A stretch of DNA of 64,000 nucleotides from a virus: positions 1-64,000 of the IMG/VR virus record IMGVR_UViG_3300021197_000975; one strand, written 5' to 3'. The notes under the pieces are model-generated. The model was not told the origin of the DNA. It saw nothing but the letters and a program-made list of their open reading frames with translations, and ran no database searches. Of this stretch, positions 46,901 through 61,745 are shown piece by piece (within the stretch, counting starts at the first letter, position 1; every line of letters starts with the position of its first letter). The translations under genes were made by a program, and so were the position numbers.

Positions 46901-49900
46901 ATCCCATCGAATTTGTTGGGGCTAATAAGATAAGATATACTAGCGGTGCGATAGACGCACAGAAGGCGGAGTATACAGACTCAGTAGTGAATGGTTTCAT
47001 TACGTTTATTGGTAAAAGAAAAGCAGTAGATCTTGATATCATTGCAAAGGATATTGGATTTAGAGAACGAGCTGTTAATGAGGGTGATAAAAAGTTTGCT
47101 GAACAAATTATTAATTACTTCATCACTCGATTCACACCTCATCAAAAGTTCCAGTTATCCGACTGGGGGGATGGAACTATTGACTATGCCCCTGCTAATT
47201 CTGTGGGTATTGCTATTGCACAGATTGTAACTACTCAGCCTGAGGGTGCTCGACTGCGTGACAATGCAAGGGATTGGATGGAAGGTGGAGCAGAAGAATT
47301 TTCTGAGTCGGCTAAGTCAGAAGATGAAGCTTACAAAAGAGAAACAACCTTCCACCCTCCTATCTTTGATGAAGTACATCAAGCTTTACCAAGATCTCTT
47401 GCTGAAGTTGAATGGGCTTATGATGATTGGAGATTGAGAAAAAGATTAGAACACATCTTAGATCCCAAACATATTACTACTAAGGAAGAAGCACTTGAAG
47501 TAATTCAAAGCTTAAGAGACAGAGAAGAAAATGAAAACGATGTTATTGGTGACACTAGAACACCAAGAATGGGATTAACGCCCAATGTATCAAACAGATT
47601 AATATGGAACAAATTACCTAGTCTGGAAGAGCATACGAACATGGTATTGGAATCCATGTTAGATATGCCCCAGATTCTTATGACTTGGGTTCATGATTCT
47701 GTTGCTCTTGGTGGTGATCATCAAATGTTCTTAGATCCCGATCTTGCTGAAACTTACTTTGAGGATAATGCTTTATCTCCCGGCTCTATGACTGGCTCGG
47801 CTCTTATTTCTGGATTAGGGATTCAGCTTGCTCATACTAGAGCCTATCCCGTAATTAGTATAGATACTGTTATCCAATCTTTGGAAAGAGGTATATCAGC
47901 ATACGGAGATCATGGAACAGATGTATTTGCTAAGGGTAATTATTTTGATTACAAGTTCAATGGTCTTCACCACTTCCTTGCACTGATGTTGCAATACTCT
48001 CCTCAAGGAGCACAAAAATTAGATGAGTTCCTTGCTGAGTGGGAGCCAACAGCTTTCTTGTATAAAACATCTAAAGAAGCTCAGGATATTTATGATACGG
48101 CTGAAGAATTAATATTTGAATCTTTGACAAACCATATTAAGAATACACAAGAGGGACCAAAGAGATCAGAACTCCAAAAGCTTTTAAACTTTATGGAAAG
48201 TGATCCTTCTATTAGAGATGCCATGAAGAAGATTGTCATTCCTCGCCTTTACATGGGTGGTATAGATGCCATGAAATCTGGCCTGAAGGAAAAAGCAAGA
48301 GAAGAAGGATGGGACATTAATACAGATCTTCTGGCTGAACTTGCAATGGGACCGATTCAAGCTACTAAGCTTAGGGTGGTTGATAAGGCATTAGGAGGTC
48401 TTACTGATTCTGATAGGCGACAGCTTGCAGATGCTCTTGTAACAATGTATGGTGATATCTATGACCACGGTCGGTGGCATGAGCAGTACAAAGATTATGT
48501 AAAAGAAAACCATTCTCTGATGGAAGGCAAAGAATTTGCGTTAAGTGATCTTCAATTTGCAATTCAAAAGAGAATAGAATTTATGGTAGAAATCCTTACA
48601 CCCAAAACTGCAAACGATGGTCTTAAACTAAGAGAGCGTAAGGGTAAAATGCTAACGCTTATTCAAGAAAGATTCCAAGGAAGAATACAAAAAGCTATTG
48701 ATTTTGTGAATGAAAAGGGTGGTGTTATAAAAAACCAAGAAGATATGCGTCAGCTGCATGTTATTATTTCAGGTAGTGAGTCTGCTTGGAAGACGAGTGG
48801 AACCTTAGCGGCTATGAATGTAATGGGCCGAACTGGATACAGATTAAGATCAGGTGAAAAGATAAATGAAACCGATACACTTCTTGAAGCCCAAAGGCAA
48901 ATCATTGGTAGACATTTAACAGAAGAAGATTTGTTAAACTACCCAAGCCATTTGGTTTACTTTGCAGTGGGTCAGGACAGTGCTGGTCAGAGATTATATT
49001 ATCACTCCAACAACTGGGGAGTTCAGCCTCAGAATGTTCCGGCTGCTCAGGTTTATCGAGAGAATACTCATAAGGGTGAGGATGATAACCCCTATGGTAT
49101 GTGGAAAATGGAACATAATAATCTTGCTAGCCTCTCAAAAGAGGATGCTGAAACTGAAGTAATGAAGTTAGTTGCTAGAGACTTGTCGGTTAGAATGGCA
49201 GGCTCTCATGCTCCTCAGTTTGGGGGCTATTCAACCAGACCACTTAAGGTTACAAAGGATAATGTTAAAACACCCGGAGATGAAACAAGAGAAGGGTTCT
49301 GGAGAGATCTTAAGAAAAGAAGCACTGAAGAAGATAATGCTTACGTTAGAGCACTAAATGAAGAAGCTAACTGGATATCAGCTGAAGAAAGAATGAAGGC
49401 AGGCGTTAGTATGGAAGGCGATGCAGCTTTAATTGATAAGCTTAAGCAGAGAAGAAAGACAACGGGCCTGCGAAGAAACGCAACCAGAAATGTTTTAGAC
49501 CCCACTCGAACTTTAAATAGAGCACAGAATGAAATCTATGTCCCGTCACAAGATGCATCGGTTAAGGGACTTGGAGCATTTAGACCACAGTATGCTGACA
49601 TCCCTTGGGCAGAAAGAGGGATCATGTCTATGGCAGAGGCTCGTTCAAACTTCAAAATAGATAGAGGGTATAACGGCAGAATACACAAAGACGCATTAAG
49701 CAAAACTCCTGAATCTATAGCAGATGTTATTCCTTCAAGTGCAAGAGGATGGCAAGGAAAATATCAAGGATCGGATGCTCCATATGTTCATGAAACACCT
49801 ATTGATTTTATAGGTGAAGGTATTCTTGGAGCTGGTCGAAAGAGAATTGCTAGAAGAGCAGAAGGATTAAAGAATGTTCTTGAGAAGTTTGCTGTAGAGA

Positions 49901-52900
49901 AGGGCCTTCAACATTTTTCAGAAAAGAATGATTGGACTTCTTTATACGTTAGGTGGCAAGTTGATAAGAAAATCACGAGACCTTTCCTTAAAGAGATCAG
50001 TGCTCTTGAAACTTCTACTGGAGCAACAAGGGGATCTAGTAGGCAGCAAGCTTTATTAGCAAGGGCCAATATGCTTTCTTCTCTTACTGGACTGCACCAG
50101 TTCCATAGAGATGTGAGCCAGCAGAATATGACACTAATTGAATATGGACAAATGCTTGGATTCCATCCTGAGGATTTAAAGAAGAGTGCTGCAAATCCAG
50201 AAGAAGGGAACCAAGCGTTCTATTGGGCGGACTTCTTTAAGTTACTCGCCAACCGAGGTGTGACAAATCTTGCACCCCTTACAATAAATATAGATGCTAA
50301 TTCATTGAGTCCTGTCAATCTTACAGCAGAAGGTAATATTCTAATGGGTGGGGAAATGACTGCCACCAGTAAACAAACTAGAATTATTACTTTAACTGTA
50401 CAGCATAATGAAATGTCTCAGGTTCTCTTTACTCTCTTCTATGAACAGAGGGGAAGAGAAATCGCACAAGAATATCTTCAATCAAAAATGAGTGAAGCAG
50501 CTTATGGAAGGTTAAAGAAAGATGGAGCAGGTTTCCCAATGTTATCTGAAGTTCCAATGTCTTTCCAAACAGAGTTAATGCATAGGTTGATTGAGGACAA
50601 AGAACTTCTTTCTATTGCTATAGATAATATGGGGTTACATATTATTCTCGATTCTTACACTAATGAAGCATTGGCTAGTATTGGTCCTCATAATCTTGAC
50701 CCTGATAAAACACTTAGGCCCGGCATGCTAACAGGTGGCCTTCATAATTTCGCTGTTAATGAAAACGCAGGGATGTATGGCATTACACCTGAGATTGCAA
50801 ATTCTATGTTGTCTTCGTTAAGAAATACTGTAGTTAATAATACTGCGGAACTTGTATCTATTACTGGATCTCAGATGGGGCAAGTGGAAAGCCCATCTAT
50901 GAGATTAAGAGATCAGGCTAAAAGAGATTTCTATGAATCACAGCGAGATGGATTCTCAGATGAAATGGATGCATTGTCTTATCTTCATATAACAAACAAT
51001 GTTGATCCCCCAAAGTCTGTTAGGAATCCCAAGTTAAAGAATGAATACGGACAACCTGTTGTTGTTTATGATGCACCACATTACTTTGCTAAGAAAGACA
51101 AGACTACTGGATTGAATCCAGTTGAAGAAGGCTTTGCGGGATACATTAGATCGGCAGCCTTAAACGCTAGAGCTTTGGGATTAGAAACTGAAGGTAAATT
51201 ACTTGCGCAAATTTTAAACCCAAAGTCTACTCTATTCCGTACAAAGTATTTACGAGAAGCTGTAGTCATTATTGTTGAAGCTTCTGGAAGTAAGATGGAT
51301 TCCTTATTTAAGCTTGAAGCTTTCTTGCCCGGTAACTGGACAAGAGCTGACATTGAAGTTCTCTATAATGAAGCAACAAAAGTTAGAAAGGGATCCAAAA
51401 TGTCTATTGTGGATGCTTATAGGATTGCAGCTTCAAGAACCATGGAAAGAAATACCTTCATCTCTCCCGCCAGAAGATACGTAGAATTGAACGGGGAGAT
51501 AGATGAATTAAATATTTCAGCAGACTTTGCCGCTTATATTGGAGCAGATGTTAGCAATCCCGAAACATTACTGCAAGCAAGGGCTGCTGCTAGAATTGCA
51601 AACAATTCATTAAAGGAAGTATCTTCAGAAGTTGAAGCCTTTAGTGGAATGGATGATGATATTTCTCTTATGGAAATATCTGATCCCGAAGGCTTCTGGC
51701 ATAAATACGGTAACGAGGGATCATCAATTACAGCCCAGATTTCAAGTATGGTTGGAGAAAATCTAATCACTCCCGAGACAGCTGCTTTCCTTAGGCAGAT
51801 GATGGGTGTTGTTCTGTCCCATAATAATGATTTTGCAAATGGATTAAGTTTAATTCACGATCCTGAAATCTCTAGAGCAAGCATTGCTGAGAAGTATGGC
51901 GACAAATACAGTATCCGTATTAACCCAGACTTAATTAAAAGAATGCCTCAAGCTGAAATCATTAAAGTGTTTGCTCACGAGGTTGTGCATATTGCTAGAA
52001 TGAAGTATATGGAGAGTGGGGATAGAGCTTGGAATTCTCTTGTTGGTGTTTACTCTACAGAAAATGGTAGAGAAACAATGAGAGGCTTAATTACTATCAT
52101 GACTAACGGAGATAGTAATGCAGTCAATGATGCAATGGAATACTATACAGGTAACATTGATGAGTTCCTTGCTGAGTGGGGTGCGTATTACTTGATGGCA
52201 AAGACATTAGGTAATCATACTGTTGTTAACGAAGTTCAGAATCTTAGGAATACTGATACTACAGCAGAAGAAACTATGCAATGGTGGGACCGTGCGTTTA
52301 ACTACATTAAGCGTGTCATGGGTAGCATTCACCAAAAGCTTTCAATTATGCAGCAGACTAACCCTGAAGTATACAAGGAGATGAGTACTATTGTTGATGG
52401 CTTGTTCAACTTCGATAATGCTCACGAATTAACCGGCAGACCTCTAGCCAAGAATCCTAACATGCGAATGGGAGTTGCAAAACATACTCGCATGGGGCCT
52501 GACTTTGGTAGACCTAGTGATGAAAATTCTAGGATTAATTCGTTGGCTGAAGTAATCTCAAGAGAAAAGAACTTACGTAATACAGGAGCAGAGAGTGATA
52601 CCAACCATCCCCGACATGAGGAATGGTTAGCTGCTACTGAAACAATTAGAGCCGAAGGACTTCTTGATCATGATATCTTAGGTATTCCTCATAGTGAATA
52701 CATATCAACACTACATGAAATGTGGGATGCTGATACTGGAGAATTTAAACAGCCAGAAAACGATAAGGAAGAAATGATAATGATATCATATCTCCTCAAG
52801 CAAGTTGCTAGACAAAGAGGAGAAAGAGTTGATTCTCCCGGTACGTTTGGACATCTTCTTCGAAAGGTGTTCCCTGAGTTTACTGAAACCGTACAAGATT

Positions 52901-55900
52901 TCTTATACAATAACAGTAACAGAACAGATAAGACTTGGAACAGTAAGGTAGCAATAATTGCAAACCTTGCTTGGCTTCTTGACAATACTAAAGCAACAAC
53001 TGAAAATGCATTTCAGGCTGAAGGTAACGGTATCATCCATAATAAAAATTACATCGAACAATACTCAAGAAGAGTTACTGAAGCTTCTAATCTTATTCGA
53101 AGTACATATGATAAGTCAACAGCTATGGGTATTGAACAGACGGCATTCTCTTTGCTGATGGATCCTGAATATGTTCTTCCCACTACTCTTACTGAAGAAC
53201 AAAAACAACATGCTACTATGCTGTCAGATATCTTTAGAGCTAACCATGGGCAATTACTTAACATGGCTAAGGACATGCTTCTTAGAAGAGAAGGAAGAGA
53301 AACACATTCCAGCAATCTTGCTCTTAGATTAAATAGAGATTTTCTTCTTAGACAAGAGGGAAGGCGTGAAGAATTCGTCACAGCACTTGCTAATAAGCAA
53401 TCAAGAAAGTTGCAAGCTTCTCTAATCCCAGCAGGAACAATTGATTCTACTCTTGTTTACATGAGTGGTCTTGTTCCGCGAGTTATAACTAATCCAGATG
53501 GGAACAGTGTTCACCCTGAGTTTATTAATGAACTGGTAAAATACACCCGTGAAGATGCTCCGGGTGCTTTGAAAGCACAGTTAAAAATACTTGATAGACT
53601 GGCCTTGGAACAATTCCAGAAGAGCAATAAGGACTTGGATAGTGAATTATTAGCTAATGAATTTGATCCTGAGGGAGAGAACCATTATCACAATATGGCT
53701 ATTTATTACCAAAGAGCGGTAGTCAAGTTACTTAAAGATACTACAAATAAAAAGATAACTTATAACGAGTTGTTTGATAAGGGTAGATTAAGTCAAGGTG
53801 AGCGAGGAGCTATCTTTAATTATCTCCAGAACAGAACAAATGTTGTTGAAGATGGTGGCGGTACTCTTGATGCGGTAGGTCGCGCTTCAGATCTAAAGTC
53901 TGGGCTTGGTGACATATTTAGATTAAGACAGGACATCTCTTCTGATATTGATGTCTGGGCTGGTGTCTCTCCAGATGCTGCCAGAATGAAGACAGCTTAT
54001 CTTTTAGCACAGGTTGGTAACTCTACCTTCATTCCCTATGAGGATGGAACAGAATTAACTATTACTGATATCTTTGGTCCTGATCAATATGGCGATGAAA
54101 GAGAACATTCTATTGTTCAAGCTGGGTTTACTCGAGATCTTAGACAGATTATCCGAGGAACTCAACGTGGTCTAGGAGCTGCTGCCCACACAAGAAAGGT
54201 TATCAAAGAACTTACTGGCGTAAACATGGACTTCAAAAGAATAATTGGATCATTACGAAGATATCTAGATGAGTCCCCTTACGCTACTCATATTTCTGAA
54301 TCCGTTGATTTTAATGGCTTAGATAAATCTACCGGCGACCAAAAAGCTTTCATTCAAAGAGGGCTCGCACATCTCGAAAGAGTATATGAAGTAGGGATGA
54401 ACATTGGAAACAGAGTTGAAATTACAGATAGAGCCGCGTGGGATACACTAGCAAAGTTTGGTCCTGATATTTTGACATACGTCTGGGGTCCAAACCTTAA
54501 TGCTGCTAACTTAATCTTTGAGGGCGGGTTGTCTGGATTAACTACAGCTATGTATGGTGGTAATCCTGTCCAACTTTACTCTGATATCCTTGGTAATACC
54601 TTCTCACTCATATGGAAACTACGAAAGGGAATGTCAAACTTAGAATTCACTGGGCAATTGAGAGCTTTGGGTGATGCTATGTTTGATACTGATTCAGCCT
54701 TACGTGACTTTATGGAAAACGATGTCTTTGAAAATGATCAATTCTTTGAGGAAGAAGGAATTCCTTTAAATGAAAGAGGCCGTAAGGCTTACTCCGGTTG
54801 GATTAAGGGATTAAGAACCTATAATAATATATCTGCTATGGCTGTTAAGATGGCAACTATGAAGCAGGGCCACCGTATTCTTATGAAGAATCAAGAAAAA
54901 TTACGGGAAATGATAGAGTGGAATAATAATTATGACGGTCCTGATAATATGAACAAGTTCCATAAGATGAAGAAGGAACTTGGTTTAAGATTCAGGGGTG
55001 AGGTTGCACAGATGTTTATGGAATCTGGTCTACTTAAAGAAGATAGTGCAGATAAATTAGATTGGATTATGGCTAATGTTCCTATGGTTCGGGGGATGAT
55101 AGATATGTCATCTCTTAGAGAACGTATTGAACAATCTCCTAATGCTACTATTACCCAAGGGAATTCTGAATTTGCACTTAAAGATCTTTGGGAGTTTGCA
55201 ACATCTATTGAATTGTTTGCTGATAAGTATTCTCAGCTTTCTGTTGTGAAGTCAGATCCCCTTGATAAAGATGTGGATAGTAATGCTGCGTGGTATCTTA
55301 ATGCTTTATACCGCCAGTTCCCTAACTTGTTTGTGGCCCAGCATATTCTCCGTAAGGGAGCAAGGCATGGTATGGGTCCGTATGCTATGACCCTTAGTGC
55401 AGGTGTTGTACTCGATCTTATTTACAACTTATTCCTTGCCGCCTTGTTTGGAATGATTGAGCCAAAGGATTTCTCACGCTGGGCAAAGGGAGACTTTGAT
55501 ACCTCTGATCTCCTCCTTATTGGTAGATCTATTGCTAGATTCCCCGGATTTGGTATCAGAGGTAATGCGGCTACTGAGGCAGCAATGGGATTGGGATATG
55601 GTATTGCTAAATATACTGGAGGCGACATGGATTTAGCTAGAGCAGGAACCTTAGCTATGCCCCTGCCAGTAGTTGCTGGAATTCGTTGGATAGAGAATAT
55701 GTGGGCTGGTGTAAACAATCCCCTCAAATACGCATTAGCTGATTCTTCTGCGGATAAAGAATACTGGCAAGAGAAGACAATACGGGACTATGTGATGGCG
55801 GCAAAGAGTATGATACCCGGATTGAACGATAGTATTCTTACTTCGGTTATGAATAACGCATGGGGAGAACCCGTGAAACCCGGAAAGAAGCAGAGAACTG

Positions 55901-56256
55901 GAACTCCTTATCCTGTTAATGCGCCTACAATTAAGACCATAGAGGATGAACTTAATAATAATTCTGTAGAGGGATTATACAGAAGAGCATTTACGGAGAT
56001 GAATCCTGAACTTCCCTCCATTATGCACCAGAGAGGGAGGAGGACAGCAGCGATGAAAGAAGCGGTTAGCAACTCCCTTCCTGCTATGGCCCCTCAGATC
56101 CCCTCTAAGGCATCTTCACCCCAACCCACCTTACCCCCCTCGGGAGATCCGAAAGCTCCTCAGACGCAGCCTCCGGCTCCCTCAGGGCAAGTTACAGGAC
56201 GGAGTGAGGGAGATGCTGCAACCAATCCTATACAAGCCCCTGAAGGCTTGATCTAA
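43936..56256 (+). CDS. Giant 4106-residue virion protein with exonuclease-like and HExxH motifs
   Basis: A single uninterrupted frame in the gp16 position. Residues about 170-330 are a Lys/Glu coiled coil. A DEDDy exonuclease-like domain occupies about 618-825: VVSFDIET (Asp624, Glu626), TFNGNSFD (Asp688) and Y818-LDA-D822. HEVVH at 2681-2685, with a downstream Glu at 2743 or 2747 (DEFLAEWGAYY), fits a gluzincin-type zinc protease. Near 3815-3840 is a hydrophobic helix (VVLDLIYNLFLAALFGMI). The last 75 residues are Pro/Ser/Gln-rich. It is probably packaged and ejected, with possible entry functions on host DNA and proteins. Most of its length matches nothing recognised by eye. Confidence 0.85.
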   Translation: MSCSLNFLDDLKQKFIDQGNSEADANNMVEALKIASSDPRSFRKHVASEKLKETWTSENKADLQGLMNKVLKSKDGTLLFDSLNEEESQSLKYLLTKKMAKDNDQAPVVRPSNADVRIQAEQELETEIERLQEIGDDRGAARNQQALSHLQQIRKNNSRLGNQYESISESIDSRDRLREQLVLLDVWLRNVDDGNKKAEARIKEMNEQLKTIKDDKYNQAKADKKTYEKQIKKLKSELKSIKNKKSEPANKIKREIKEKEGKLKEAVAIIQKADREAGPLEKKINRIIEAARELSDKNPEVKKLRKAHSAAEKKLKDVMAELNKAGFASDGFLQSIVQGINTAVTARQLAEDLQRARQDEALRIELIDSYFDKNHKNYIKPKEEKETTLSRDILSEILGPSFVVSRTEYGQVLTREEIDVLLKEWRSLNYKYAGEHGLLIADLTFADQQSLEAMQEQSTNEGKSVDETDNNTIIIPMLTQAQAMEKSNPGVIPDANAQLTPQELKQRLLKFVRKLETLRSSVGYGKYVGLQHVEAVLNNMPGLDDVSAQIWFDDAVRVLNEEGIETLTHTERQETLRHILRLTGMTDAEISSLPEMIDYGRWLQDLDVHDKENPMPLNQVVSFDIETRGKNNEEIIGWSIKRIDGTIINSRTIGEAMTKEEAQEMLALLNDLQNDGYKVVTFNGNSFDMNTLGALAENQQMGVRIAYRSLDVMQILRTFKSQIHTEDDAQSLYFSLNNVSRALGMGGKFGTVGPEGSVLRNLGKWYYLVHKKATTGEDVTFADIVKNGETMAEEDAQSILDEINGMSSEEAASYLDQYLDADAMLPAQILYGNGAQDGLFNMMGRNVKIKSANKGEATVEIAAPTPTWALTSNVTEAKQDRWHGLEWARHVADIGEVMTSAFSSIDDTSIVSVDLDLAISRVYDAVIRAQHLDPSQRLLAERMVDLAKETLSKEQLLEKEKINIIQANRQALENIHKEEFETGENAGRYPIEFVGANKIRYTSGAIDAQKAEYTDSVVNGFITFIGKRKAVDLDIIAKDIGFRERAVNEGDKKFAEQIINYFITRFTPHQKFQLSDWGDGTIDYAPANSVGIAIAQIVTTQPEGARLRDNARDWMEGGAEEFSESAKSEDEAYKRETTFHPPIFDEVHQALPRSLAEVEWAYDDWRLRKRLEHILDPKHITTKEEALEVIQSLRDREENENDVIGDTRTPRMGLTPNVSNRLIWNKLPSLEEHTNMVLESMLDMPQILMTWVHDSVALGGDHQMFLDPDLAETYFEDNALSPGSMTGSALISGLGIQLAHTRAYPVISIDTVIQSLERGISAYGDHGTDVFAKGNYFDYKFNGLHHFLALMLQYSPQGAQKLDEFLAEWEPTAFLYKTSKEAQDIYDTAEELIFESLTNHIKNTQEGPKRSELQKLLNFMESDPSIRDAMKKIVIPRLYMGGIDAMKSGLKEKAREEGWDINTDLLAELAMGPIQATKLRVVDKALGGLTDSDRRQLADALVTMYGDIYDHGRWHEQYKDYVKENHSLMEGKEFALSDLQFAIQKRIEFMVEILTPKTANDGLKLRERKGKMLTLIQERFQGRIQKAIDFVNEKGGVIKNQEDMRQLHVIISGSESAWKTSGTLAAMNVMGRTGYRLRSGEKINETDTLLEAQRQIIGRHLTEEDLLNYPSHLVYFAVGQDSAGQRLYYHSNNWGVQPQNVPAAQVYRENTHKGEDDNPYGMWKMEHNNLASLSKEDAETEVMKLVARDLSVRMAGSHAPQFGGYSTRPLKVTKDNVKTPGDETREGFWRDLKKRSTEEDNAYVRALNEEANWISAEERMKAGVSMEGDAALIDKLKQRRKTTGLRRNATRNVLDPTRTLNRAQNEIYVPSQDASVKGLGAFRPQYADIPWAERGIMSMAEARSNFKIDRGYNGRIHKDALSKTPESIADVIPSSARGWQGKYQGSDAPYVHETPIDFIGEGILGAGRKRIARRAEGLKNVLEKFAVEKGLQHFSEKNDWTSLYVRWQVDKKITRPFLKEISALETSTGATRGSSRQQALLARANMLSSLTGLHQFHRDVSQQNMTLIEYGQMLGFHPEDLKKSAANPEEGNQAFYWADFFKLLANRGVTNLAPLTINIDANSLSPVNLTAEGNILMGGEMTATSKQTRIITLTVQHNEMSQVLFTLFYEQRGREIAQEYLQSKMSEAAYGRLKKDGAGFPMLSEVPMSFQTELMHRLIEDKELLSIAIDNMGLHIILDSYTNEALASIGPHNLDPDKTLRPGMLTGGLHNFAVNENAGMYGITPEIANSMLSSLRNTVVNNTAELVSITGSQMGQVESPSMRLRDQAKRDFYESQRDGFSDEMDALSYLHITNNVDPPKSVRNPKLKNEYGQPVVVYDAPHYFAKKDKTTGLNPVEEGFAGYIRSAALNARALGLETEGKLLAQILNPKSTLFRTKYLREAVVIIVEASGSKMDSLFKLEAFLPGNWTRADIEVLYNEATKVRKGSKMSIVDAYRIAASRTMERNTFISPARRYVELNGEIDELNISADFAAYIGADVSNPETLLQARAAARIANNSLKEVSSEVEAFSGMDDDISLMEISDPEGFWHKYGNEGSSITAQISSMVGENLITPETAAFLRQMMGVVLSHNNDFANGLSLIHDPEISRASIAEKYGDKYSIRINPDLIKRMPQAEIIKVFAHEVVHIARMKYMESGDRAWNSLVGVYSTENGRETMRGLITIMTNGDSNAVNDAMEYYTGNIDEFLAEWGAYYLMAKTLGNHTVVNEVQNLRNTDTTAEETMQWWDRAFNYIKRVMGSIHQKLSIMQQTNPEVYKEMSTIVDGLFNFDNAHELTGRPLAKNPNMRMGVAKHTRMGPDFGRPSDENSRINSLAEVISREKNLRNTGAESDTNHPRHEEWLAATETIRAEGLLDHDILGIPHSEYISTLHEMWDADTGEFKQPENDKEEMIMISYLLKQVARQRGERVDSPGTFGHLLRKVFPEFTETVQDFLYNNSNRTDKTWNSKVAIIANLAWLLDNTKATTENAFQAEGNGIIHNKNYIEQYSRRVTEASNLIRSTYDKSTAMGIEQTAFSLLMDPEYVLPTTLTEEQKQHATMLSDIFRANHGQLLNMAKDMLLRREGRETHSSNLALRLNRDFLLRQEGRREEFVTALANKQSRKLQASLIPAGTIDSTLVYMSGLVPRVITNPDGNSVHPEFINELVKYTREDAPGALKAQLKILDRLALEQFQKSNKDLDSELLANEFDPEGENHYHNMAIYYQRAVVKLLKDTTNKKITYNELFDKGRLSQGERGAIFNYLQNRTNVVEDGGGTLDAVGRASDLKSGLGDIFRLRQDISSDIDVWAGVSPDAARMKTAYLLAQVGNSTFIPYEDGTELTITDIFGPDQYGDEREHSIVQAGFTRDLRQIIRGTQRGLGAAAHTRKVIKELTGVNMDFKRIIGSLRRYLDESPYATHISESVDFNGLDKSTGDQKAFIQRGLAHLERVYEVGMNIGNRVEITDRAAWDTLAKFGPDILTYVWGPNLNAANLIFEGGLSGLTTAMYGGNPVQLYSDILGNTFSLIWKLRKGMSNLEFTGQLRALGDAMFDTDSALRDFMENDVFENDQFFEEEGIPLNERGRKAYSGWIKGLRTYNNISAMAVKMATMKQGHRILMKNQEKLREMIEWNNNYDGPDNMNKFHKMKKELGLRFRGEVAQMFMESGLLKEDSADKLDWIMANVPMVRGMIDMSSLRERIEQSPNATITQGNSEFALKDLWEFATSIELFADKYSQLSVVKSDPLDKDVDSNAAWYLNALYRQFPNLFVAQHILRKGARHGMGPYAMTLSAGVVLDLIYNLFLAALFGMIEPKDFSRWAKGDFDTSDLLLIGRSIARFPGFGIRGNAATEAAMGLGYGIAKYTGGDMDLARAGTLAMPLPVVAGIRWIENMWAGVNNPLKYALADSSADKEYWQEKTIRDYVMAAKSMIPGLNDSILTSVMNNAWGEPVKPGKKQRTGTPYPVNAPTIKTIEDELNNNSVEGLYRRAFTEMNPELPSIMHQRGRRTAAMKEAVSNSLPAMAPQIPSKASSPQPTLPPSGDPKAPQTQPPAPSGQVTGRSEGDAATNPIQAPEGLI

Positions 56257-56270
56257 TAAGGAGATTAATT

Positions 56271-56537
56271 ATGGCTAAGAAAAGAAAAAGTAAAGGTGCA
56301 ATGAAGGGCTGCAATATCGGCAATGGTTGCAAAAGTAAATCGGGGGGGCTTACGGCTAAAGGTCGAAGAATGATCAATAAGAAAACTGGATCTAAGCTTA
56401 AGGCCCCTCAGCCCGGAGGAGGAGCTCGTAAGAAAAGTTATTGTGCCAGATCAGCAGGGCAGATGAAAAAGTTCCCCAAGGCTGCTAAGGATCCTAACAG
56501 CAGATTGCGGAAGGCACGTAGGAAATGGAAGTGCTAA
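56271..56537 (+). CDS. Small basic Cys-containing protein (DUF6321-like)
   Basis: 88 residues, about one third Lys/Arg. The segment GGLTAKGRRMINKKTGSKLKAPQPGG, then KKSYCARSAGQMKKFPKAAKDPNSRLRKARRKWKC, has the arrangement of the small DUF6321-type proteins found in many tailed phages (GLTAKGR, K-SFCAR, final W-x-C). Function unknown. It closes the late block after an AAGGAG site. Confidence 0.65.
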   Translation: MAKKRKSKGAMKGCNIGNGCKSKSGGLTAKGRRMINKKTGSKLKAPQPGGGARKKSYCARSAGQMKKFPKAAKDPNSRLRKARRKWKC

Positions 56538-56566
56538 AATCGACTATAGGGGTCGAGAATTTGGAC

Positions 56567-56602
56567 GGGGGGAGTATAGCTTTGAAGTTGAAGCTATCCC
56601 CC
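56567..56602 (+). promoter_or_regulatory. GC-capped hairpin upstream of small membrane gene
   Basis: GGGGG (56568-56572) pairs with CCCCC (56598-56602) and ATAGCTT (56576-56582) with AAGCTAT (56591-56597), with a three-base bulge. No T-run follows, so it is more likely a processing or regulatory structure than a terminator. A second C-tract at about 56607-56613 could compete for the G-tract. Confidence 0.45.
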
Positions 56603-56632
56603 AGTACCCCCCCTTCAAAGGAGATACATACC

Positions 56633-56815
56633 ATGTATCCAAAGAAAAGACCTGAGAAAGGCAAGCTCATTGATATCTTCTCTCATAATCCTCTCGTAAA
56701 GGGAGGACAGGGAAGGTCTGCCCAGCAGACTAAGGAAGATACAATCAGTGGTGCTATTGTGTGGACTGTATTCATTGCAGTCTTCCTTGTGGTGCTGATC
56801 ATCGCAGCTGCCTGA
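56633..56815 (+). CDS. 60-residue C-terminally anchored membrane protein
   Basis: Start ATG 56633 follows AAAGGAGATAC; an earlier in-frame ATG at 56525 would run through the hairpin and is rejected. Residues 1-37 are soluble and basic (KKRPEKGKLIDIFSHNPLV). Residues about 39-59 form one membrane helix (GAIVWTVFIAVFLVVLIIAAA). A late-position tail-anchored protein of this size is a holin candidate, equal in merit to those near 33 kb. Confidence 0.6.
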   Translation: MYPKKRPEKGKLIDIFSHNPLVKGGQGRSAQQTKEDTISGAIVWTVFIAVFLVVLIIAAA

Positions 56816-56822
56816 TCTCACT

Positions 56823-56874
56823 GACAATCTCAACGATGCTCTCTCAATCGAGAGAGTATCTATTGGGATTCTCA
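56823..56874 (+). repeat. 52-nt hairpin element, copy A
   Basis: Outer stem AATCTCAA/TTGGGATT (one T-G pair) and inner 11-bp stem GATGCTCTCTC/GAGAGAGTATC with AATC loop. The same 52-nt design recurs at 57229-57280. Together the pair flanks the 98-residue gene at 56924. Confidence 0.75.
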
Positions 56875-56923
56875 CTCTGAGAATTCTGTGCTTAAACTAG
56901 GGCTTGGCCCTAAGGAGTTTGAC

Positions 56924-57220
56924 ATGTCACAGTATGACGAACTGGCAGCCCGCCTTGCGGTGCTCGAAGCTCGTGATCGTATGCAGCGTGCCATCTTGTC
57001 GATGGTGACTGACCCTGCTACGTGGCAATCATTGCTTGACTTCCATGCTGAGTGGAAGGACGAGCTCCAAGCAATCGGTAAGGTTCTCAATGCTTTCTTC
57101 GATACGGAGAATGTACCTGAGCAGCTTATCGATACCATCGTTGATGGAGTCAAGGGACATGTAGCAGTACATGAGACTTGGCTAGAACATCATCGAGAGG
57201 CTGGTCACCTCAGTCACTGA
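56924..57220 (+). CDS. Small helical protein between the paired hairpins
   Basis: 98 residues from ATG 56924, which follows TAAGGAG; a GTG at 56888 is less likely. Helical and acidic (ELAARLAVLEARDRMQRAILSMV, FHAEWKDELQAIGKVLNAFF), ending in a His-rich segment (HVAVHETWLEHHREAGHLSH). Base composition is markedly more GC-rich than the late genes. Function unknown. Confidence 0.65.
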   Translation: MSQYDELAARLAVLEARDRMQRAILSMVTDPATWQSLLDFHAEWKDELQAIGKVLNAFFDTENVPEQLIDTIVDGVKGHVAVHETWLEHHREAGHLSH

Positions 57221-57228
57221 ACGTGACA

Positions 57229-57280
57229 GACAATCTCAACGACACCCTCTCTTAGGAGAGGTTGTCTATTGGGATTCTCA
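57229..57280 (+). repeat. 52-nt hairpin element, copy B
   Basis: Same length and same flanking blocks as copy A (GACAATCTCAACGA at the left, TCTATTGGGATTCTCA at the right). The inner stem differs in sequence (CCTCTC/GAGAGG) but keeps pairing, including two compensatory base-pair changes. It begins the leader of the polymerase-like gene. Confidence 0.75.
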
Positions 57281-57480
57281 TCCCACGGAGGAGAACGAAA
57301 GGACACAAGGACCACGCCTGCGGTGGGCAGGCCAGACAAACTATGCAAGGAAGCAAGCTTCACGCTGTAGCTCAACAGATCGTTCCAGTGCTACAGCGGA
57401 GCAATAGACAATAGCTGCGGTAGACAGTAGGCGTGTCACTGCCTGCCGCACATTCTCCTGAGACACGCGATAACTTTGGA
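57281..57480 (+). promoter_or_regulatory. Structured leader with potential pseudoknot before the polymerase-like gene
   Basis: No coding frame is convincing here. Three structures are visible. GCCTGC/GCAGGC lies near 57316-57332. An 8-bp stem pairs 57363-57370 with 57391-57398. A 12-position stem pairs 57417-57428 with 57438-57449 (one mismatch, one wobble). The loop of the last (57431-57437, GCGTGTC) is perfectly complementary to 57462-57468 (GACACGC), forming an H-type pseudoknot that ends 12 bases before the AAGGAGG site. Such an element could control translation. Confidence 0.55.
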
Positions 57481-57493
57481 AAGGAGGTTTGTC

Positions 57494-59404
57494 ATGATGG
57501 CAGACCGCACCAAAGTAGTGAGTGCTTTGACAAAGCCCGTATCAACGATATGGGATTTCGTCCACACTCTTCACACCTTCTGCAACATCCCGTTGCAGGA
57601 GGCTGGCGATCTCATGTTCGCCTTGGCTCACGATGGAACCATCGAGCTGTTCAACGTAGCAGACGATGAATCCAGCAAGACCACCACATATGTAGTTAAT
57701 ACACATGTGGCAAGTCGAGCCTTTGGACTTGATGGGGAATGTCGCCTCATCAGGTGTGACGAGAACAAGCGTATCCCATCCCTCGGGGCGGGCGGGCGTC
57801 TTGGCTCTTTCCACTTGCCACCCATGTTGGCGAAGGCTATGGATCACAATGATTCCCAGCGGTTTATCATGCACACCGGGATGCTCGATATCTATCGACG
57901 CATCAAGGATGGCATGTCCCGCGAGGATGATTCCAAGAATGTGATCTGGACCCGTCGCCGCAACAGGATGGAACTGCTACTGGTTACGGAGTTCGAGACC
58001 CATGGTCCCGGCCCTTATCACCAGATCGGTACACCCGAGGCAGCATTCCGGCTCCATGTTCTGGCTTCCACTGCGGGCATTGCGTCCCATCAGGGAAGTG
58101 GTTGGCATCGTGCAGTGTGCGACTTCGCTCTTCGGTACGGAGCACCCAAGGGCAGTGACGAGTGGGATCACGGTATGTACATCCTTGAACAGGAGTACAA
58201 CGTGAACACCAGCAACTACGCCAAGATTCTCGAGGCAGGTTGCAGCTTGGATCTGTTCCTTAATCCCGCCAAGTACGAGCACATGCTCGGCACCACTGAC
58301 GGGGCCAAGTTGGCCGAAGCTGTTCGCGCTGCGTTCTGCATTCATGAACTGCTGACTGAAGGATCCACCTCTTACATCTTCGGTAAGGACCGCAACTCCT
58401 GTGGTCCCGCCGATATGTCCCGTATGATCGGCTGCCGCGATCTCGCTACAGCTACGAACATGATCTACTCGGGCAAGGAGGTGAACTTCGCAGCTGAAGT
58501 TCTCAAGTTTGTCGGCAAAAAGATTGCAGTGACTGACTCCATGTTGCCTTACGAGGATCTCATCCTCGATCCCAAGGCAACTGGCAAGCCCTGCCTTCAG
58601 CCCATCCAGTACACGGCCTCTGCGGCTAGTGCGTCCCGTGCTCTTGTCTTTCGCAAGGGCAAGGGGGATGATGTCCATTACTTGGACGCTGCTGACATGT
58701 ACATTCCCGGCTCTCTGGATAAGGTTGCTGAATGCGACCTCAACCAGAAGTGGCTCCACGTTCACAAGGAGCTGGGTTGGGAGAAGAGCATTGCTCTTAC
58801 CATTGAGACTGCAAGCTGCATCGAAGAGGCCTTCCACATGCTTTCCCACGGGAGGGCACGAACGGCTGGTCAGATCATGAAGAAGGCAGTTGAAGTATGC
58901 AATGAGAATAAGACGTACCTCACATGGCCGACCGTCATGGGAATTGATTTCGTCTATCGGCCCACTGAACTTGATTACAGTGTGCTCGAAAAGGATGACG
59001 ATGGCAACATCGTCAAGGACGAACGCATCAAGATCTCAGGTCGAGTGAATGGCAGGAGGAAGCAGTACAAGCTGTACCCGACTGTCACTGAAGCTCGTAG
59101 CTCAGGAGCCTTGGCTGCTGTGCTGCGTGTGAAGGATGCGGAACAGAATGTCCTGTATAACTGCGAAGCCAGTGATGCAGGTATTCCCACCGCCAACACT
59201 CACGACAAGTTCGGCACAGCCCTTGGCTGCCTTGGTTTCGTGAACGAGGTGATCACCCGGAATGCAAAGACCGGGACCGATGCCAACTTCTTCAACGAGA
59301 TCATTGACAGGTACGAACTGCCTTTCAACCACTTCACGCCACTGCGGCCTGAAGAGTTGGATGGCAAGCACATGCTGGACGGCACTCCGCCTCATCTGGC
59401 ATGA
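57494..59404 (+). CDS. Putative short, divergent single-subunit (T7-type) RNA polymerase
   Basis: 636 residues from ATG 57494, after AAGGAGG (57481-57487); TTG 57476 overlaps that site and is rejected. Motif A-like: DRNSCGPADMSRM from Asp299, aligning position by position with T7 DGSCSGIQHFSAM (Asp537). Motif B-like: Lys361, Lys365 and Tyr373 at the spacing of T7 Arg627, Lys631, Tyr639. Motif C-like: THDKFGT with Asp571, against IHDSFGT (Asp812). The motif A-C distance is 272 residues (275 in T7) and 65 residues follow (71 in T7). About 240 N-terminal residues present in T7 polymerase are missing, so promoter recognition must differ. Codons are GC-rich, like the capsid gene. Alternative: an unrelated protein with chance motifs. 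Confidence 0.65.
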   Translation: MMADRTKVVSALTKPVSTIWDFVHTLHTFCNIPLQEAGDLMFALAHDGTIELFNVADDESSKTTTYVVNTHVASRAFGLDGECRLIRCDENKRIPSLGAGGRLGSFHLPPMLAKAMDHNDSQRFIMHTGMLDIYRRIKDGMSREDDSKNVIWTRRRNRMELLLVTEFETHGPGPYHQIGTPEAAFRLHVLASTAGIASHQGSGWHRAVCDFALRYGAPKGSDEWDHGMYILEQEYNVNTSNYAKILEAGCSLDLFLNPAKYEHMLGTTDGAKLAEAVRAAFCIHELLTEGSTSYIFGKDRNSCGPADMSRMIGCRDLATATNMIYSGKEVNFAAEVLKFVGKKIAVTDSMLPYEDLILDPKATGKPCLQPIQYTASAASASRALVFRKGKGDDVHYLDAADMYIPGSLDKVAECDLNQKWLHVHKELGWEKSIALTIETASCIEEAFHMLSHGRARTAGQIMKKAVEVCNENKTYLTWPTVMGIDFVYRPTELDYSVLEKDDDGNIVKDERIKISGRVNGRRKQYKLYPTVTEARSSGALAAVLRVKDAEQNVLYNCEASDAGIPTANTHDKFGTALGCLGFVNEVITRNAKTGTDANFFNEIIDRYELPFNHFTPLRPEELDGKHMLDGTPPHLA

Positions 59405-59489
59405 TTCACCTTGACGGGTGACTCTCCGGGGACGGGCAGGCTGGGAGAAATCTCAGTCTGTCTATTAGATGTCTAGTTGTTAGATATCT

Positions 59490-59517
59490 ATTTATTAATC
59501 TCACTGGAGATAAAACA
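59490..59517 (+). promoter_or_regulatory. Leader element shared with the major capsid gene
   Basis: ATTTATTAATCTCA at 59490-59503 followed by a GGAGA site, with the block ending 15 bases before the ATG. Sequence and spacing are identical to 13860-13887. Upstream, 59405-59489 holds two small hairpins (TCACC/GGTGA near 59406 and CTGGGAG/CTCAG near 59439) and no gene. Confidence 0.4.
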
Positions 59518-59964
59518 ATGAACAATGGAAACAACGCAAGGTACTTCTACCTCGAGGAGGTGGAGTCACCTCACCGGAAGTTCTTCTTCACCTCATTCGG
59601 AGACCGGGTGGGTGTGAAGTTCGTGGACGCAATGCCCGAAGAGCTTCGTGAAGGTGCGAAGATATATGATCTTATTACCTTCCTGCCCATGTGTGAGCAG
59701 TCAGGGTACAAGGTCGTACAGAATCGCTGGACTTCCAAGCATATCCGTCTGACGAAGTTGGATGGGATCTGGAAGGCCAAGGTTGTGGCTGTTCACCCTC
59801 TGGCCGACAAGCCTCTTCACGCCACCTTTGGTGGTGAGACGATGCGAGATGCCCTCTCCAACTTCTGGCTTGGGTGGAACCAGAAGGTAGTGAATGAGTA
59901 TGGACACCTCAATGTCCACACTCACATCATCTTCACCGAACCGAAGAAGTACCTCGAGTGCTGA
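59518..59964 (+). CDS. Unknown protein of the polymerase region
   Basis: 148 residues with GGAGATAAAACA before the ATG. Sequence RYFYLEEVESPHRKFFFTSFGDRVGVKFVDAMPEEL is rich in beta-forming residues. The end (GWNQKVVNEYGHLNVHTHIIF) is mixed. Codon use is C-ending as in the polymerase-like gene. The shared capsid leader suggests strong expression. Function unknown. Confidence 0.7.
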   Translation: MNNGNNARYFYLEEVESPHRKFFFTSFGDRVGVKFVDAMPEELREGAKIYDLITFLPMCEQSGYKVVQNRWTSKHIRLTKLDGIWKAKVVAVHPLADKPLHATFGGETMRDALSNFWLGWNQKVVNEYGHLNVHTHIIFTEPKKYLEC

Positions 59965-59975
59965 TGCACTGATTA

Positions 59976-60006
59976 CAAGGCCCCTTGCAAAGTGCTTGGG
60001 GCCTTG
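59976..60006 (+). terminator. 9-bp hairpin after the 148-residue gene
   Basis: CAAGGCCCC (59976-59984) pairs perfectly with GGGGCCTTG (59998-60006) across a 13-base loop, 11 bases after the stop codon. There is no downstream T-run, so it is either a weak or Rho-assisted terminator or a 3'-end stabiliser. Confidence 0.5.
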
Positions 60007-60025
60007 ATCTCTAGGCATCTCTACG

Positions 60026-60224
60026 TAACCCTAGATAACCCAAGTATCACGTAGCCCATCATAACACAGGATAGCCCTAGAGGTAGCCCTAAGTCGGCCC
60101 AGAGTAGCCCGAGGTAGCCCTAGAGGTAGCCCTACAGGCAGGTAGCCCCGTGGTATCCCCTAAGTAGCCCCCAAGTAGCGGGGTAAGGGGGTATCCATAG
60201 GCCTACCTGCTTTTTTCGTAGCCC
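60026..60224 (+). repeat. Iteron-like array of TAGCCC units
   Basis: Nine exact TAGCCC hexamers (starting at 60052, 60072, 60084, 60105, 60115, 60127, 60143, 60165 and 60219) plus two TAACCC variants at the left. A 20-base block containing two units occurs twice exactly (60072-60091 and 60115-60134). No ORF runs through convincingly. Candidate roles: replication origin iterons, terminase recognition, or the counterpart of the short repeats beside T7 terminal repeats. Confidence 0.7.
60138..60216 (+). terminator. Large terminator hairpin with T-run
   Basis: GCAGGTAG (60138-60145) pairs with CTACCTGC (60203-60210), followed directly by TTTTTT. The interior has several C- and G-tracts that can form an inner stem. 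It overlaps the right part of the TAGCCC array. Confidence 0.6.
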
Positions 60225-60345
60225 AACCCAAGACGGAACGCTTCGCTGACCATCTCTTGCCTTCGGCACACGCGGAACACACTCCCAGTTGCTCCCGAAT
60301 GCCAGCGGGGGTAAGCCCGTGGCATTCTGGGCAGTTTGTGAACAT
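60160..60345 (-). CDS. Possible leftward zinc-ribbon protein
   Basis: 61 residues on the minus strand. The N-terminus NCPECHGLTPAGIREQLGVCSAC has CPxCHG...CxxC, the pattern of a small zinc ribbon, followed by a basic tail. It would be the only leftward gene. Against it: no clear ribosome binding site, the 3' end lies in the terminator and repeat array, and an 8-bp hairpin (GAATGCCA/TGGCATTC, about 60297-60327) falls inside. Confidence 0.3.
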   Translation of the reverse strand: MFTNCPECHGLTPAGIREQLGVCSACAEGKRWSAKRSVLGWATKKAGRPMDTPLPRYLGAT

Positions 60346-60430
60346 GTGTCACCGAGTAGGGATCTTTCGGGATCTTCTTGGTGACAGGTTGGAAGAGTCA
60401 TCGTCCAGCCGTCCCCGTTGTGGGGAAGAA

Positions 60431-60697
60431 ATGATGACGTACTCTTCGGAGGACTTGGAATCAATGGCGAAGACCACTGATACCAAGCAGTCCACCAGCC
60501 CCAATGGATTCACTCGAATCCGTGAGGCTAAGGTGTCCCTTGAGGCCCAATACGCTGAGCGTGTTGAGGCTTGGGATGACGCCACGGTAGACCACTGCCT
60601 CGATATGATCGATGAAGGACGCATGCGCGTTCCCTTCAAGGTCCGTATCGTGCGTGCGTCTGCTGTCAAGCGTGGACTCGCCACTAATAACGGTTAA
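60431..60697 (+). CDS. Small helical protein of unknown function
   Basis: 88 residues from ATG 60431 with GGGGAAG upstream; ATG 60464 is an alternative. An upstream extension to 60257 crosses a hairpin and looks unnatural. The C-terminal 60 residues (FTRIREAKVSLEAQYAERVEAWDDATVDHCLDMIDEGRM) are helical. Tail is basic. A CCTCGC/GCGGGG hairpin (60710-60724) follows the stop. Function unknown. Confidence 0.55.
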   Translation: MMTYSSEDLESMAKTTDTKQSTSPNGFTRIREAKVSLEAQYAERVEAWDDATVDHCLDMIDEGRMRVPFKVRIVRASAVKRGLATNNG

Positions 60698-60750
60698 TCC
60701 GTTGTTGGGCCTCGCCTAGCGGGGTGGTGGTGTTTAGCACACCCGGCAGT

Positions 60751-60787
60751 AGCACTGGCTGTCGTTATGTCCTCAGTGCTTTTCTTT
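60751..60787 (+). terminator. Terminator ahead of the structured RNA region
   Basis: AGCACTG (60751-60757) pairs perfectly with CAGTGCT (60774-60780), followed by TTTCTTT. It would end transcripts from the polymerase-like segment before the structured RNA. A second 8-bp hairpin with a TTCG tetraloop lies at 60791-60810 (CTCTCTCC/GGAGAGGG), probably a stabilising or processing structure. Confidence 0.65.
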
Positions 60788-61341
60788 ATGCTCTCTCCTT
60801 CGGGAGAGGGTGTAGAGAAAATGAGTTAGGTTGGAACCAACGGATCTCCCGTGAGCAGGTGCTTGCAGGGCTGCAACCCGGTGAAGGTGGCGACTGCCCC
60901 TCCATGGGAGATCCATTCCAACCGCAACGAGCAGCAGACGGGATGCAACTGCAATAACAACATCCCAATTCGGGTGCTGGAGTGTGATGATGTCCGCCAT
61001 TGACCAGCATACTATGAAGAGGCGGGTCCGGCTAAAGAAGGCAGCCGTGAGGTGGATAGGGGACGAATCGCCAGCCTTTACTTATGGAGACCTGAAGCCA
61101 GATCGTATGCTGGAACAGGATAAAGATAGCGCCTCTGTCTTAGGCGGGAACTGCTGGGCATGGTGAGAGGATACTCTCTTTGGATACGGTACACGCCGGT
61201 TACATGTAGGTAGATAAACCGTGGCCCGTAGCACGAAGAAATCGGGGCGGTACGGACCTTTGCTGTGAAGACGTTACCAGTAAAACAGCATGTGCCTGAG
61301 TATGCACGTAAATAACTACTCCAATCTAATAGGGGGACCTA

Positions 61342-61435
61342 GGCATGCTCTACGATGTCCTGAGGTTGCTTGTGCTGGTTCAGGAGCCAAGATAAGTAAC
61401 TTATGTCGTATCGGGTTCGAATCCCGGCCCCTCCT
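61342..61435 (+). ncRNA. tRNA-like element 1
   Basis: The 3' half is tRNA-like: T arm TCGGG-TTCGAAT-CCCGG (61411-61427) followed by CCCCTCC and T. A variable-arm-like hairpin ATAAG-taa-CTTAT lies at 61392-61404. The preceding hairpin TCCTGA/TCAGGA (61358-61385) has a 16-base loop instead of 7. No matching 5' acceptor strand (GGAGGGG) is present, so a normal tRNA is unlikely. Confidence 0.4.
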
Positions 61436-61442
61436 AACCTAT

Positions 61443-61544
61443 GCCCTGCCGTGGCTTGGCTAAATTCTACGTGTCTTTGATAAGTAATTGGTCGTAGAAG
61501 ATGAAAGTCAAAAGACTAGAGAGGTTCGACTCCTCTCGGGGCTT
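61443..61544 (+). ncRNA. tRNA-like element 2
   Basis: T arm AGAGG-TTCGACT-CCTCT (61520-61536), variable-arm-like AGTC-aaaa-GACT (61506-61517), and a 7-bp stem TTCTACG/CGTAGAA (61465-61499) with a 21-base loop in the anticodon-arm position. GCCCTG (61443-61448) can pair with CGGGGC (61537-61542). No seven-base anticodon loop is visible. It shares the GATAAGTAA block with element 1. Confidence 0.4.
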
Positions 61545-61554
61545 ACCATATCAC

Positions 61555-61745
61555 GATGAGTCGTGCGTTAGTATAGAGCGTGAGACTATACCCAATGCAG
61601 AACTGGATTAGCGGGGGTGTCAGAGGTCTGTTGAGGTTTGAGTGCTACCAAGAGTCAGAAAGCATTACACGATTTTAGGTCTTGAGTTCGACACAAAACG
61701 GCTCGGGCTTGTGAGCTAAGGATCGTATCCTTCCCTGACTGCGAA
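61555..61745 (+). ncRNA. Further hairpins at the 3' side of the structured region
   Basis: CACGA-tgag-TCGTG near 61552-61565, an interrupted stem around GTATAG/CTATAC (61571-61591), GCTC/GAGC near 61701-61716 and AAGGAT-cgt-ATCCTT near 61718-61732. No gene is seen. These may be the end of the large RNA or a separate small one. Confidence 0.4.

Follow-up and report, generated by a model that had tools for sequence, protein, structure and literature searches.

We identified a second single-subunit RNA polymerase (ssRNAP), reduced in size and with conserved catalytic residues, which is a fixed component of a lineage of uncultured T7-like podophages. According to the textbooks, a T7-like phage has a single RNA polymerase. 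The window analyzed here comprises the first 64,000 bases of a virus record of 70,358 bases. It contains an ORF of 636 aa on the plus strand (P0001, here termed RNAP-B; 57494..59404), whose ATG is located at 57494 and whose stop codon ends at 59404. A strong Shine-Dalgarno sequence (AAAGGAGG, 57480..57487, same strand) is found 6 nt before the ATG. An antisense ORF of 290 aa (57977-58849) remained without support. Past the end of the window, 5.2 kb downstream of RNAP-B, the same genome encodes a canonical T7-type RNAP of 815 aa (genome 64637-67084; L002:4637-7084), which matches PHROG 414 with E=1.8e-151, Pfam RNA_pol with 3.4e-76 and mitochondrial and T7 RNAPs in the PDB (best 2e-51). This rules out RNAP-B as the main RNAP of the phage; it is therefore a second polymerase.

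Both RNAP genes are present in this genome as well as in 14 of the 15 other near-complete contigs (>60 kb), the remaining one (G028) being truncated some 2.6 kb past its giant gene. An initial impression that contig G017 lacks a second RNAP was overturned by a 663-aa copy at its right end. When bacterial and archaeal genome contigs were scanned with the canonical RNAP alignment none was found, so that the lineage is known here from viral metagenomes only and no host is known. Within the literature covered (open-licence PMC papers only) there was no report of such a second RNAP.

Homology to single-subunit RNA polymerases

The original prediction had described the protein as a reduced and highly divergent T7-type RNAP. 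“Highly divergent” is correct, because with P0001 as sole query no match was obtained from Pfam, from PHROGs, from PDB sequences or from phage records (tblastn). Two sets of peptide patterns derived from it also found nothing among viral contigs; one of the six patterns in one set was misspelt (LEDP for LILDP). Relatives could be reached only by using the neighboring canonical RNAP as bait, which yielded 8 and then 80 viral loci. In the loci of the relatives a P0001-like gene is located at the equivalent place upstream of the canonical RNAP. The protein at this position in locus L004 (P0003) shares 29% identity with RNAP-B over 586 positions (E=4e-49) and itself matches Pfam RNA_pol (2.5e-12), PHROG 414 (RNA polymerase; 3.4e-26, over residues 165-594) and, by tblastn, phage RNAPs. 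Iterative HMM searches resulted in 25 second-RNAP members plus one of 705 aa in L052, and the HMM of this family matches 91 canonical RNAPs. Intermediate homologues, family profile, residue mapping and predicted fold all agree with a reduced T7-type RNAP, and we regard it as near certain that RNAP-B belongs to the T7-type ssRNAP superfamily. Its lack of a direct library match would be in line with a protein that is no RNAP and resembles one by chance or convergent motif matching, but this can practically be excluded: the intermediate homologue, the family HMM and the predicted fold already refute it, and the motif positions show little or no variation in 17-25 homologues sharing 11-26% identity with P0001. 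Genuine RNAPs in viral dark matter go undetected with standard libraries (Pfam, PHROGs, PDB sequence search).

All three sequence motifs that had been proposed were found, each on the plus strand. Motif A (D299..M311, 58388..58426) carries D299 within DRNSCGPADMSRM, aligned with T7 D537, and G304 at the position of G542. Motif B (58574..58612) has the Lys-x3-Lys-x7-Tyr spacing in the form K361-x3-K365-x7-Y373 (T7 R627, K631 and Y639), and motif C (59198..59218) is represented by THDKFGT, in which H570-D571 align with T7 H811-D812. The T/DxxGR region is located at 58037..58051 on the same strand as E182-A-A-F-R186 (T7 D421-R425); here R186 is invariant, and D421 and G424 are replaced. The lengths given in the original prediction were reproduced as well. 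D299 and D571 are 272 residues apart (275 in T7), 65 residues follow D571 (71 in T7), and 186 residues up to the R425 equivalent, in comparison to 425 in T7, correspond to 239 fewer where about 240 had been reported missing. The N-terminal region measures ~170-190 aa where ~405 is usual. The stretch from motif B to motif C is longer in RNAP-B, with 198 vs. 173 residues in T7.

D299, K365, Y373, H570 and D571, the equivalents of T7 D537, K631, Y639, H811 and D812, are nearly invariant throughout this family of 11-26% identity to P0001. In 17 aligned second RNAPs the invariant positions are R186, A280, D299, G304, K365, Y373, D548, H570 and D571, which mapped on T7 include R425, D537, G542, K631, Y639, D787, H811 and D812. 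The positions of R627, M635, G640 and H784 vary among the second RNAPs. In motif B of RNAP-B, R627 corresponds to K361 and G640 to T374, both variable in the family, whereas the K631 and Y639 equivalents are invariant. M635 is replaced too, further departures from T7 concern D421, G424 and Y571, and the terminal “foot” (FA) is absent. Of the T7 residues tested, the canonical RNAPs of these phages have retained all but 546 and the final one. Judging from the invariant and variable positions mapped on T7, the residues required for chemistry are retained in the second RNAPs while those around them drift.

Predicted fold and N-terminal region

The structure of RNAP-B was predicted with AlphaFold2 from an alignment of P0001 and 16 second RNAPs that included no canonical RNAP (pLDDT 82.8, pTM 0.82). 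A Foldseek search of the PDB matched the model to mitochondrial and T7 RNAPs with E values in the range of 1e-14 to 1e-11 (yeast mitochondrial RNAP 1.4e-14, T7 RNAP 1.3e-13). Among predicted viral structures the matches were RNAPs (best 1.1e-17), including the 648-aa RNAP of phiEcoM-GJ1. According to the model, the fold of palm, fingers and thumb is that of ssRNAPs; a fold without a polymerase palm, which would have refuted the original prediction, was thus not obtained.

Where T7 has its promoter-binding N-terminal domain, a winged-helix domain is predicted for RNAP-B at residues 5-76 (a1-b1-a2-a3-b2-b3; 57506..57721, plus strand), with weak support by E-value. This part of the model was calculated for the N-terminal 125 residues together with four close relatives, i.e. 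from five sequences of the P0001 subclade only. It is confident for residues 11-70, and winged-helix proteins (TFE-alpha, MarR, PadR and others) make up nearly all of its 50 best PDB matches, with a probability of 0.85-0.99 and E 0.007-0.06. A Pfam search with the N-terminal domains gave no match. We consider the presence of a winged helix in RNAP-B as likely on the basis of the model, but not as shown.

With T7 gp1 (PF00940, PHROG 414) RNAP-B shares the predicted palm, fingers and thumb, a similar motif order, spacing and C-terminal length as well as the equivalents of R425, D537, G542, K631, Y639, H811 and D812. It differs in lacking a T7-like N-terminal promoter-binding domain and in the replacement of D421, R627, G640 and H784. 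In contrast to the sole RNAP of Autographivirales it is without the N-terminal promoter-binding domain of ~400 residues, and as a second RNAP it is located at the right end and not in the early/replication region. The mitochondrial RNAPs (yeast Rpo41, POLRMT) provide the best fold matches in the PDB (E 1e-14); they retain a large N-terminal region and are 9-13% identical to RNAP-B. Mitochondrial RNAPs need a partner for promoter opening. The RNAP of phiEcoM-GJ1 (648 aa) has a similar length and is among the best viral structures (Foldseek E 3.2e-17), with only 14% identity to RNAP-B in the structural alignment. To our knowledge it is the single RNAP of a myovirus. It demonstrates that ssRNAPs of ~650 aa already exist; the Chaseviridae, to which this phage belongs, are noted as carrying a T7-like RNAP (PMC6872899, PMC12842549). 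If active, the second RNAPs would rank among the smallest single-chain enzymes of the class and might provide tools with a new promoter specificity, and with ~25 natural variants the lineage raises the question of what an ssRNAP can do without the classical promoter-binding domain.

Genomic location and hairpin-rich surroundings

The overall gene order is T7-like: primase-helicase, DNA polymerase A, dNMP kinase, 5’-3’ exonuclease, class II ribonucleotide reductase, portal, scaffold, capsid, tail, nozzle, terminase and giant virion proteins. The second RNAP has the same orientation as the giant virion protein gene that precedes it, and no other large gene lies between it and the right terminal repeat. 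Direct terminal repeats were found in G017 (L134/L135, about 274 bp, 98.5%) and G036 (L136/L137, about 279 bp, 98.9%); in both contigs 0.3-0.6 kb separate the end of the second RNAP from the right repeat, with the canonical RNAP located 5-6 kb from the left end. Since the present contig runs through the repeat junction, we infer that the terminus of this phage probably lies in the interval of about 60.0-61.9 kb.

Upstream, RNAP-B is adjoined by a single virion-type protein of 4106 aa (window 43936-56256). Residues 623-743 of this protein are RNase H/exonuclease-like (Pfam RNase_H_2), a SprT-like metallopeptidase motif is found at about residues 2656-2688, and the first 1000 residues are without a match in phage records. 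A small Lys/Arg/Cys-rich protein (window 56271-56537) matches several long PHROG families without known function at their C-terminal ends. Directly downstream of RNAP-B a gene for a 148-aa protein is located on the plus strand (59518..59964), which we regard as a candidate partner. In L004, L015, L018 and L019 a homologue of this protein (about 150 aa in these relatives) likewise comes immediately after the second RNAP; outside the five closest genomes the arrangement is not conserved.

The second RNAP gene is embedded in a GC-rich, hairpin-rich and partly non-coding island (55700..61600; 45-57% GC vs. 42% for the genome). A GC-rich island surrounds the gene in most loci, with L071, L068 and L052 as weak cases. 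Upstream of RNAP-B an element occurs in two copies on the plus strand. The first (56823..56884) consists of GACAATCTCAACGA, a hairpin (CTCTCTCAATCGAGAGAG), TATCTATTGGG and a second hairpin (ATTCTCACTCTGAGAAT). The second copy lies in the 280-nt leader of RNAP-B (57229..57284) and consists of a hairpin (CCTCTCTTAGGAGAGG), TTGTCTATT and another hairpin (GGGATTCTCATCCC). In the flanks of the second RNAP we counted 74 strong perfect hairpins vs. 8-13 in dinucleotide shuffles; for comparison stretches of more than twice the length the numbers were 28 vs. 13-17. A second hairpin is found within 45 nt for 44 of 77 such hairpins (11 expected from mononucleotide shuffles). These elements could be promoters, terminators or RNA-processing sites; their function is unknown, and no link to a transcription start has been shown. 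Sigma-70-like sites near RNAP-B occur at chance level. A k-mer search for repeated phage promoters yielded codon-pattern noise, and an Rfam match in a CCC/GGG-repeat stretch was rejected as it was far below the gathering score.

Evolution, codon use and possible role of the second polymerase

The second RNAPs differ more between relatives than the canonical ones. Sequence identity for second vs. canonical RNAP is 32% vs. 68% between this genome and L004, 63 vs. 84% for L018-L019 and 64 vs. 90% for L032-L038, and the branch of this genome measures 2.49 changes per column for the second in comparison to 0.25 for the canonical RNAP. A clade of this genome with L004, L015, L018 and L019 was recovered in the tree among the second as well as among the canonical RNAPs, in keeping with vertical descent; the deep placement of the long branches is unsure. 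For L046-L049, the one close pair with usable dS, we obtained a dN/dS of about 0.16, which indicates that the second RNAP is constrained.

Codon use also distinguishes the two polymerases. RNAP-B uses AGA for 0 of 35 Arg codons and TTA for 0 of 56 Leu codons, as opposed to 22/48 and 17/69 in the canonical RNAP. Pooled over the relatives, AGA accounts for 8% in the second vs. 38% in the canonical RNAPs and TTA for 4% vs. 17%. The window carries three tRNA genes (Met, Arg-TCT and Leu-TAA; 829-1125), and relatives also have Lys-TTT and Ile-TAT. Phage tRNA-Arg(TCT) and tRNA-Leu(TAA) read just the codons AGA and TTA that RNAP-B avoids. The host-like codons of RNAP-B suggest that the gene is either strongly expressed or expressed ahead of the phage tRNAs. 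Since the capsid, SSB and DUF932 genes likewise avoid TTA, strong and early expression both fit.

We think it probable that RNAP-B is an active RNAP, with its activity being inferred and not shown; the basis is indirect and consists of the conserved catalytic residues, the dN/dS of one close pair and the codon selection. It would then make RNA by the usual two-metal mechanism with D299 and D571, assisted by K365 and Y373 in the fingers. Without the T7 promoter-binding N-terminal domain it may find its templates via the winged helix and/or a partner such as the 148-aa neighbor. The original prediction had suggested that it may need a partner or use unusual promoters, for which the predicted winged helix, this downstream gene and the hairpin elements around RNAP-B could be considered. 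On the whole we lean towards a second RNAP with its own template recognition and its own share of the work as the best explanation. A division of labor between the two enzymes likewise appears likely to us: the canonical RNAP would transcribe the bulk of the genome in T7 fashion and the second one a small set of genes at another time, in our favored version on the genome-end island around the onset of infection. Our inferences on timing and template rest solely on codon use and position, and high late expression would produce the same codon pattern.

Such a division of labor would resemble that of phage N4, which has two polymerases, vRNAP and the heterodimeric RNAPII gp15/gp16 (PMC12633501). 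As in N4, two phage-encoded ssRNAPs (the activity of RNAP-B being inferred) are found in one podophage of ~70 kb. The promoters of the N4 vRNAP are DNA hairpins, and RNAP-B, for which there are no promoter data, lies in surroundings enriched in hairpins. In contrast to N4, the pair here consists of an ordinary 815-aa T7-type enzyme and one unsplit 636-aa chain within a T7-like gene order. Scanning all ORFs with the RNAP family HMM gave no RNAP match in the giant proteins, unlike N4.

An analogy to the N4 vRNAP could go further, with RNAP-B being made late together with the internal virion proteins, packaged, injected and transcribing the first genes of the next infection. The location of RNAP-B directly behind the giant late virion gene (4106 aa) in the same orientation, with no further large gene up to the right repeat, would agree with this, as would a codon use nearer to the capsid gene than to replication genes and the hairpin-rich surroundings. 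However, neither a packaging signal nor proteomics supports it, RNAP-B has its own 280-nt leader and no fusion to a virion protein, and the adjoining late virion genes use AGA and TTA freely, so that they do not simply form one expression unit with it. We regard packaging as unlikely, while still the strongest competitor of the favored explanation. Even more tentative is a further reading in which a widespread uncultured group of T7-like podophages relies on two ssRNAPs, a standard one and a minimal winged-helix one that recognizes hairpin-bearing elements at the genome end. If this were true, hairpin recognition by a winged-helix ssRNAP would be a mode of promoter recognition not described for this enzyme class, with a specificity that turns over between close relatives through fast evolution.

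The very fast evolution of RNAP-B (branch length 2.49 vs. 0.25 for the canonical RNAP of the same genome) and the lost equivalents of R627, G640 and H784 could also point to a paralogue that has lost catalysis or is decaying, and whose present function is DNA binding or regulation. This appears improbable to us, as the lost residues are peripheral and the retained ones catalytic across 11-26% identity, reading frames are open throughout, the gene is present in nearly all relatives, dN/dS is ~0.16 in one close pair and codon selection is strong. Relatives with more canonical motifs (L046, L049, L059 and L043) may be active while RNAP-B is impaired. We give very little weight to RNAP-B acting at the genome ends as a primase-like or replication-origin enzyme, with primers or terminal transcripts and not mRNA as its products: the adjoining terminal repeat, the small catalytic core without promoter domain and the hairpin-rich flanks would suit it, but the genome has a full T7-type primase-helicase and no evidence ties RNAP-B to replication.

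As separate observations, two stretches not called by ARAGORN resemble the T-arm and acceptor 3’ ends of tRNAs (GGGTTCGAATCCCGGCCCCTCC and GAGAGGTTCGACTCCTCTCGGGGCTTA; window 61380-61560), and irregular TAGCCC(TA)/GTAGCCC repeats occupy a non-coding stretch at 60040-60210, perhaps near the genome terminus.
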